Part shown: positions 34,664 to 36,409 of the stretch, piece after piece
How the letters are laid out: each line of letters starts with the position of its first letter
Numbering within the stretch: the first letter of the stretch is position 1
NCBI GenBank assembly: GCA_017642885.1
Contig: JAEPOM010000007.1
Location: forward strand, 99,764 to 163,763
Direction of reading: 5' to 3'
Length of the DNA stretch: 64,000 nucleotides
Source: Henriciella sp.
GTDB taxonomy: Bacteria > Pseudomonadota > Alphaproteobacteria > Caulobacterales > Hyphomonadaceae
Position numbers and translations under genes: made by a program
The notes under the pieces: generated by a model
The model's input: only the letters and a program-made list of their open reading frames with translations
Databases searched by the model: none
Told to the model about the DNA's origin: nothing

Positions 34664-36409
34664 TTAGGCGGCGTCAGCCAGCATTTTTTCAGCTTTGGCT
34701 TTCGCGTCTTCAATTGAGCCAACCATGTAGAAGGCTTGCTCTGGAAGGTGGTCATATTCACCTTCGATCAGACCTTTAAAGCCAGCAACCGTGTCTTCCA
34801 GTTTCACCTGAACACCAGGTGAGCCGGTGAAGACTTCAGCCACGTCAAATGGCTGCGACAGGAAGCGCTCGACTTTACGTGCCCGGGCCACAACGAGTTT
34901 GTCTTCTTCAGACAGCTCGTCCATGCCGAGAATGGCGATAATGTCTTGCAGTTCCTTGTAACGCTGCAGGATTTCCTGCACGCCGCGAGCAACTTCGTAG
35001 TGGTCCTGACCAACGATCAGCGGATCGAGAATACGCGACGTGGAGTCGAGTGGATCCACAGCCGGGTAAATGCCTTTTTCCGAAATCGCCCGGTTCAGAA
35101 CGGTCGTCGCATCCAAGTGAGCAAACGAGGTCGCTGGTGCCGGGTCGGTCAAGTCATCCGCAGGAACGTAAACCGCTTGTACAGAGGTGATCGAGCCTTT
35201 GGTTGTTGTCGTAATCCGCTCTTGCAGGGCGCCCATGTCAGTCGCCAGCGTTGGCTGATAGCCCACAGCTGATGGAATACGGCCGAGCAGAGCAGACACC
35301 TCAGAACCGGCCTGGGTGAAGCGGAAGATGTTGTCGACGAAGAACAGAACGTCCTTGCCTTCAACGTCACGGAAATACTCAGCCTGTGCGAGACCGGTCA
35401 GCGCCACACGTGCGCGGGCTCCTGGAGGCTCGTTCATCTGGCCATAGACCAGCGTCGCGCGGCTTTCGCCTTCGAGATCGATCACGTTCGCGTCCTGCAT
35501 CTCGTAGTAGAGATCGTTACCCTCACGGGTACGCTCACCAACACCAGCAAATACAGAGTAACCACCGAACAGTTTCGCGATATTGTTGATCAGCTCCTGA
35601 ATAAGAACCGTCTTGCCAACGCCGGCACCGCCGAACAGACCAATCTTACCACCCTTGGTGTAAGGGCAGAGCAGGTCGATGACCTTGATACCGGTGACGA
35701 GCACTTCGGCTTCTGTCGACTGGTCGACAAAGGCAGGTGCAGGGGCGTGGATCGGCGCGCGCAGATCGGTTTCAACCGGGCCACGTTCGTCAATTGGCTC
35801 ACCAACAACGTTCATGATGCGTCCGAGAGTGGCTGGTCCAACCGGCACTTTAATCGGCTCGCCCAGATCGGCGACAGCCTGGCCACGAACCAGACCTTCG
35901 GTGGAGTCCATCGCGATTGTGCGAACGGCGTTCTCACCAAGGTGCTGAGCAACCTCGAGCACGAGGCGGTTGCCATTATTTTCACATTCTAGAGCGTTTA
36001 GAATGTCCGGAAGGGCGCCATCGAACTCAACGTCGACAACAGCGCCGATAACCTGGCTTACGCGGCCAGTCGCTTTTGAAAGGTCCATGCGAGGCGTCTC
36101 CTTAGGAGCGGGTTTAGGTTTCGGGGCAGCTTTTGGGGCTGCCGTGGTTTTGGGAGCAGCAGCGGGTGCTGCTACGGATTTGGTTTCAGCCGTGGCTGGT
36201 TTGCAGACGCCGCAAGCGCGCGCGTCCTTTTGGCCGAGCGCTGACATCGCAGTTTCGGCTTCGCCAAAAGTTGCAAACGGGCCATGCCATTTGTCGTCAT
36301 CATTGGTCTGATCGCCGCCGACGCCTTGACCGTCATTGCAATAGCGGCACTCGCCGGTGTGTAGGCGGGCGCGCTTGTTGCCAAAATTCTCGTAAATCCA
36401 ATAGGCCAT
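34664..36409 (-). CDS. atpD: F1 ATP synthase beta subunit with Cys-rich N-terminal extension
   Basis: From residue 108 on this is a normal catalytic beta subunit: [21 protein letters not shown]-loop [22 protein letters not shown], the [12 protein letters not shown] region and [14 protein letters not shown]. Ahead lies an in-frame 107-residue extension. Its residues 1-70 ([17 protein letters not shown]...) carry H17, C21, C24, H42, C66 and C69 in an HxxxCxxC...CxxC layout, likely metal-binding. Residues 71-107 form an Ala/Lys/Pro-rich linker. GGAGG sits 9 bases before this ATG. A second start at 36088 (474 aa) has AAGGAG, also 9 bases upstream, so a short and a long form may both be made. Rhizobial AtpD is known for Ala/Pro/Lys-rich extensions; the Cys-rich module is unexpected. 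Confidence 0.92.
36098..36103 (-). promoter_or_regulatory. Internal Shine-Dalgarno of atpD
   Basis: AAGGAG on the minus strand, 9 bases before the ATG at 36088 that begins the canonical beta subunit. It lies inside the open frame of the extended form and encodes part of the linker. Its near-perfect match and spacing suggest an alternative or main translation start. Confidence 0.7.

Follow-up and report, generated by a model that had tools for sequence, protein, structure and literature searches.

A Cys/His-rich module fused to the F1-ATPase beta subunit of Henriciella and its relatives, with a conserved internal start that predicts long and short beta

Some bacterial genes carry an upstream and an internal start in a single frame, the long product adding a domain to the short one. 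Passages in two published accounts describe CcmM in these terms, with a long form that bears an anchoring domain and a short, internally initiated form that is a structural component of the assembly; CheA, IF2 and ClpB share the arrangement (PMC11005335, PMC8580825). The F1 part of alphaproteobacterial ATP synthase also has a lineage-specific extra element, the zeta subunit (PF07345), presented in part of a further account as a helical inhibitor encoded by a separate gene (PMC9317440). Here we analyze a 64,000-nucleotide stretch of a Henriciella sp. genome (contig JAEPOM010000007.1, positions 99,764 to 163,763; hereafter, the window), in which atpD, the gene for the F1 beta subunit, is preceded in frame by a small Cys/His-rich module and a linker. 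Our preferred reading, to which we assign a probability of roughly 0.55, is that a Cys/His domain was fused in front of atpD with the beta start kept, and that one mRNA would yield both a long beta with a Zn-stabilized docking arm and a short beta. No title or abstract opening returned by our literature searches describes such a beta subunit.

An ATG at 36409, one base beyond the stop codon of atpG (36411-36413), opens the atpD frame, which continues to a stop at 34664-34666; a GTG at 36427 is in frame too. An initial annotation of the window had described a frame running 107 residues upstream of the canonical start, and it does: the frame has 581 residues, with M108 at 36088. Every feature placed by that annotation in the extension is where it was said to be, namely H17, C21, C24, H42, C66, C69, an Ala/Lys/Pro linker (residues 73-107, also rich in Thr), and two Shine-Dalgarno sequences, GGAGG and AAGGAG, lying 9 nucleotides ahead of the long and the short ATG, respectively. 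Residues 114-576 are a full ordinary F1-ATPase beta (TIGR01039/PF00006), matching positions 2-462 of the 462 in TIGR01039 at 831.4 bits against a cut-off of 462.85, and the gene is flanked as usual by atpG and atpC; it differs from other members of that family in its added Cys/His module and linker and in retaining beta's own start inside the longer frame. No internal promoter was found at 35900-36700, and Rfam gave no match at 34000-40000. We read 43 such loci, 42 of which have the long frame (L144 stops at a contig end), and removal of three duplicates left 39 distinct copies including the window. The frame is continuous in all 39, which rules out a sequencing or assembly error as the source of the fusion, an origin that the initial annotation had raised for the in-frame join.

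The case for two products comes from the internal start. Its ATG is present in 39 of the 39 distinct copies, preceded by AAGGAG in 32 and by AAGGGG in seven; the latter, from the Ponticaulis group, have a spacing of 6 nucleotides and keep a Shine-Dalgarno-like element despite encoding other amino acids (KGS for KET). Synonymous diversity over codons 103-108 is 0.12; the 34 remaining six-codon windows in codons 1-210 range from 0.24 to 0.71. The Lys and the Glu encoded by the Shine-Dalgarno element use one codon each across the 32 genomes with KE, a state seen in 0 of 34 other invariant Lys/Glu columns and in 20 of 354 invariant degenerate columns overall; by parsimony on the beta-core tree, these two codons underwent no changes, versus one to nine in each of the 34 other Lys/Glu columns. 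Duplex energies, computed with what we take to be the anti-Shine-Dalgarno sequence, lie between -8.2 and -11.2 kcal/mol at the short start in all 39 genomes. The median for 350 other Met codons of the core is -2.1, and none reaches the short start of its own genome (the closest, in L010, is -8.2 versus -8.3). At the long start the median over genomes is -7.9. Set against the average over control windows from the gene, there is less structure at the short-start site in 39/39 genomes and at the long-start site in 29/39. Among database proteins with a readable junction, 63 of 64 have Met there. A second in-frame start with its own conserved Shine-Dalgarno sequence, the mark by which we judged dual initiation, is therefore present, and we strongly predict two products, long and short beta, from one gene. 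The earlier suggestion that the cell may make both forms gains from these results, since each start has a Shine-Dalgarno sequence and synonymous sites at the inner one are strongly constrained; by sequence, the two-start design is well supported.

The module also bears the signs of a maintained protein domain. Over the 271 pairs (of 741) left after filtering for saturation, its median ratio of non-synonymous to synonymous substitution rates (dN/dS) is 0.155 and that of the beta core 0.066, a pattern that indicates purifying selection. In 25 aligned beta modules, H17, C21, C24, W41, H42, C66 and C69 are all invariant, and the ligand motif is found in all 61 database proteins that a search for beta-length sequences with the module returned. 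A broader alignment of 94 rows retains H17, C21, W41, C66 and C69 in every row and C24 in 93. The Cys/His set picked out by the initial annotation thus holds throughout the beta modules, with one member, H42, dropping to 88 of 94 in the wider family. Judged by this conservation, any metal would most likely be bound by H17, C21, C66 and C69, with C24. Purifying selection together with the conserved ligands rules out a spurious long reading frame.

Other atpD genes carry the module as well. A profile search found it in 40 of 105 genomes of the family: 25/29 in the window's own, Henriciella-like genus (g1), 7/7 in Ponticaulis (g3), 3/3 in g8, 2/3 in g2 and 3/42 in Hyphomonas (g5, which includes H. 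johnsonii and Hyphomonas sp. BRH_c22), with none in the other five genera. When residues 1-79 were used as the query, 28 of 61 genomes matched, 27 through a fused atpD and one (G037) through a different protein; the 25 aligned beta modules are these 27 fused loci less the near copies L017 and L019. Four g1 genomes lack the module: G007 and G008 carry an ordinary short atpD, and no true atpD was found in the assemblies of G011 and G015. With family members in the draw set aside, no fused atpD occurred among 289 genomes of the class (five module matches) or 398 of the phylum (seven matches). The 61 beta-length database proteins comprise 60 of 530-625 residues and one (P0042) of 327. Two database entries end early: the frame of P0002, on a 25-kilobase contig, stops within the linker, and that of P0005, on a 35-kilobase contig, just past the internal beta Met. 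These are either frameshift errors or genomes in which module and beta are separate proteins.

The fusion has a history of gain, loss and, it seems, exchange. On an atpG protein tree of 57 sequences (L155 and L137, which yielded no atpG, are excluded), presence of the module requires six state changes, which fits one gain and five losses, other mixes being possible. The beta of G008 is 94% identical to that of the window in its N-terminal part; in this genome the module and most of the linker are gone and CCCGCTCCTAAGGAGACGCCTCGATGG is retained, a state that looks like loss of the module. The Ponticaulis koreensis-type loci L145 and L150 have a core 97-98% identical to that of L025 and a nearly identical linker end; their modules, each other aside, are closest to those of g1 and g5 (82-83%). 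In the window, the nearest core is that of L011 (99.1%) and the nearest module that of L002 (89%). From these identities, modules seem to have been exchanged between relatives, swapped by recombination.

Searching the protein database also revealed that the module occurs alone, as a small-protein family of 325 proteins at 0.55-1.75 times the query length (E up to 0.001). The 120 of these that were listed are mostly unnamed or hypothetical, a few being fragments of fused beta, and HxxxCxxC...CxxC is present in 110 of 115 newly listed proteins (P0069-P0183). The family is widespread and uncharacterized, and descent of the beta module from a separate small gene, an origin the initial annotation had put forward, is the best reading of these sequences. 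In JGI, three free-standing proteins of 71-72 residues (P0101, P0108, P0118) bear the name 'F-type H+-transporting ATPase subunit beta', which was probably carried over from fused genes.

A confident structure model of residues 1-75 has a predicted local distance difference test score (pLDDT) of 92.7 and a beta-beta-beta-alpha-beta fold. The 'zinc-knuckle-like' label given to the module earlier is not the best one for this fold, whose nearest solved structure, by a weak match, is N-Ada, the Zn domain of a DNA-repair protein (PDB 1u8b; Foldseek E 0.6, probability 0.35). No zinc knuckle or other named Pfam or NCBIfam domain scored above its cut-off on the module, and the PDB held no sequence relative of it at E up to 10. 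Membership in the Ada family is not supported: the top fold match is too weak, a profile comparison found CxxCxP only in common, PF02805 (Ada Zn-binding) did not match the window module at E up to 10, and it was not among the 25 families shown, of 30 in all, for the 94 module members. If H17, C21, C66 and C69 are set against the four Cys of Ada, using the Ada numbering as we assume it to be, the module loops are longer by 4 and 18 residues. Their sum equals the 22 model residues left unaligned to N-Ada, a correspondence that is arithmetic on the assumed numbering and not a superposition. With the four ligands superposed, H17 (94/94) would by alignment lengths presumably occupy the position of Ada's methyl-acceptor Cys; a His in that place, on the same numbering, is a difference from N-Ada that leads us not to expect methyl transfer by the module. 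DUF6233 (PF19746) scored 25.4 bits for the window module and 27.2 bits for the 94 members, below its curated cut-off of 27.6; residues 50-74 resemble its C-terminal part, and only these 25 residues match.

What, then, might a long beta do? The N-terminus of F1 beta lies at the crown, away from the membrane. Initiation at two sites on one mRNA would give long and short beta, the former carrying a Zn-stabilized domain, its metal probably bound by H17, C21, C66 and C69, on a flexible arm that would reach from the top of F1 into the cytoplasm, close to the stator cap. Long and short beta would mix in the alpha3beta3 ring, and the ratio of the two starts would set zero to three arms per F1. The arm may bind a hypothetical partner, protein or nucleic acid, and so anchor or position the enzyme. 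Docking is a likely job for the arm because of the parallel with CcmM, whose long and short forms are the closest working parallel. CcmM is not a relative; in the case described here the two products are predicted, and the added domain sits on a core catalytic subunit.

Long beta might instead be a regulatory subunit, in which loss of Zn or oxidation of Cys in the module alters F1 activity or assembly. The five conserved Cys/His positions suit such a role, and three beta copies per F1 would give it sensitivity. Zeta, however, was found in all nine genomes tested, eight with the module and one without, so that inhibition is already served by an element that, as part of one account has it, is a helical inhibitor from a separate gene (PMC9317440) and that here is present alongside the module. 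A flexible linker that spans about 35 residues here, and up to about 75 in relatives as judged by Met positions, is poor for allostery, and the repeated changes between presence and absence also sit badly with a regulator. Given a long linker and zeta in 9/9 genomes, we take regulation of catalysis to be less probable than docking and regard a regulatory long beta as improbable.

The settings in which the module is found elsewhere raise another alternative, that it binds nucleic acid and that long beta either anchors ATP synthase to DNA or RNA or regulates the mRNA that encodes it. In L063 the module is the N-terminal part of a GIY-YIG-like protein (Pfam 21.7 bits, slightly under the cut-off of 22.6), and in two other loci it is the C-terminal part of IS1-like transposases some 400 residues long (L028:1465-2694, 24.4 bits against a Pfam cut-off of 24.1; L184:1468-2652, 18.9 bits, below it). 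As a standalone gene it lies directly behind GmrSD (L061:159-2052), behind a GIY-YIG-like frame identified by eye, with no Pfam match (L062:2968-3737), and in a third case has a ResIII-type helicase and a GIY-YIG gene nearby (L065:539-3740). The neighbors at these last three loci suggest a nucleic-acid or defense setting for the free module protein and make binding of nucleic acid by long beta a live option. They are known from a handful of loci, however, and one relative (L064), in which the module is the N-terminus of an Amdase-like protein, does not fit; the fold match to N-Ada is weak and the profile match confined to CxxCxP. We therefore consider this alternative unlikely. The standalone protein had two matches among plasmid records and none among phage records. 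No atp genes were seen near standalone loci L061, L062, L065, L066, L068, L070 and L188 or near the copy on a Mesorhizobium plasmid.

A second genus, g249, places the standalone module beside an ATP synthase gene. It is present in seven of 30 genomes (six intact, one partial), in all seven behind the F_O b gene. The six intact copies lie 90-113 nucleotides behind b; in the partial copy (L195), which has a stop inside, the match begins about 235 nucleotides behind it. This placement hints at a wider functional link between the module family and ATP synthase. In each of the six intact copies, b is separated from the module by a hairpin-T terminator identified by eye, and because of it the module is not clearly co-transcribed with b and the adjacency is perhaps due to chance.

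The internal AAGGAG could also act within a single product. If only long beta were made, this element might be a conserved site of translational pausing that gives the module time to fold ahead of beta synthesis, an idea in keeping with a long start that has a Shine-Dalgarno sequence in most genomes and with a frame unbroken in 39/39 copies. A pause has no need of an ATG just behind it, yet that ATG is kept in all 39. Relatives without the module are informative here. We read the junction in 20 of them, 14 within the module-bearing clade (g1, g2, g5, g9) and six more distant (g4, g6, g7, g243). The 14 close relatives have AAGGAG (ten; eight at 9 and two at 8 nucleotides) or GAGGAG (four; 7-9 nucleotides) before the beta ATG. 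There, at the same place, it is the sole available start of beta, and the in-frame element of the fused gene therefore matches it; we rate the pause as quite unlikely. We do not uphold the idea that the internal start is a relic predating the fusion, as the leaders of the distant relatives differ and the close relatives may be losses: under a single gain of the module at the root of the clade, all of the latter are losses and are uninformative about the leader before fusion. The argument for two starts stands regardless, because it does not depend on the internal start being ancestral.

Least probable of all is a neutral passenger, an inserted gene that lost its stop codon and whose long product is tolerated noise: the six changes between presence and absence and a G008 that lives without the module would fit, but the module's dN/dS of about 0.16, its ligand motif in every beta-length database protein and its occurrence in five genera make this very unlikely.

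Several observations weigh against long and short beta with a docking arm. The full-length model of long beta is poor (mean pLDDT 54, with residues 76-110 under 50) and cannot place the arm, whose position is taken from general knowledge of F1. The module has been gained or lost repeatedly and is absent from 39 of 42 g5 genomes, from which it follows that it is dispensable. All six distant relatives without the module have other leaders, neither AAGGAG nor GAGGAG. The long-start Shine-Dalgarno sequence is weaker in some relatives (-4.0 in L010, -4.2 in L153). One of the 64 readable junctions (P0001, at the end of a 637-base contig) has Lys for the internal Met, and four further proteins (P0051, P0061, P0064, P0065), read at the protein level, have Met without the usual PKE/KGS residues and may lack the Shine-Dalgarno sequence.

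The F1 genes of the window lie on the minus strand in the order atpH-atpA-atpG-atpD-atpC; atpA, atpG and atpC were identified by Pfam, and atpH was named by position only. Features are collected in Table 1.

Table 1. Features of the fused atpD locus (window coordinates) and of the standalone module in genus g249 (locus coordinates)
Feature	Position	Strand	Basis
atpD long frame, 581 residues (module, linker, F1 beta)	34664..36409	-	TIGR01039; architecture common to 39 distinct copies including the window
N-terminal Cys/His module, residues 1-72 (H17, C21, C24, C66, C69)	36194..36409	-	Conservation; structure model of residues 1-75
Ala/Pro/Lys-rich linker, residues 73-107, predicted disordered	36089..36193	-	Composition; pLDDT <50 at 76-110 in full-length model
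GGAGG, Shine-Dalgarno sequence of the long start, within the atpG 3' end	36419..36423	-	Duplex energy -9.5 in the window
AAGGAG, Shine-Dalgarno sequence of beta's own start, inside the fused frame	36098..36103	-	Sequence, constraint, duplex energy
Internal ATG (M108), start of canonical 474-residue beta	36086..36088	-	ATG in 39/39 distinct copies
Canonical F1 beta subunit	34664..36088	-	Family profile matches
atpG (gamma), directly upstream of atpD	36411..37292	-	PF00231, 318.6 bits
atpC (epsilon), downstream of atpD	34205..34606	-	PF02823, 95.7 bits
Standalone module of g249, behind F_O b	L183:1495-1710, L186, L187, L191-L195		b and b' by Pfam in L183

Few proteins are conserved as strongly as the catalytic subunits of ATP synthase, and any domain joined to beta might be present at as many as three positions per enzyme. 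We tentatively propose, as a possibility rather than an expectation, that the fused beta represents a new accessory element of F-type ATP synthase, in which a predicted Zn domain would dock the enzyme to a partner and the internal start would make the fraction of beta that carries it tunable. If both forms are made, translation would decide what fraction of ATP synthases bears the extra domain, and these bacteria would offer a natural, genetically simple system in which to ask what such an arm binds. For a widespread and unnamed family of small proteins, the fused beta provides a first concrete setting, in a core enzyme.
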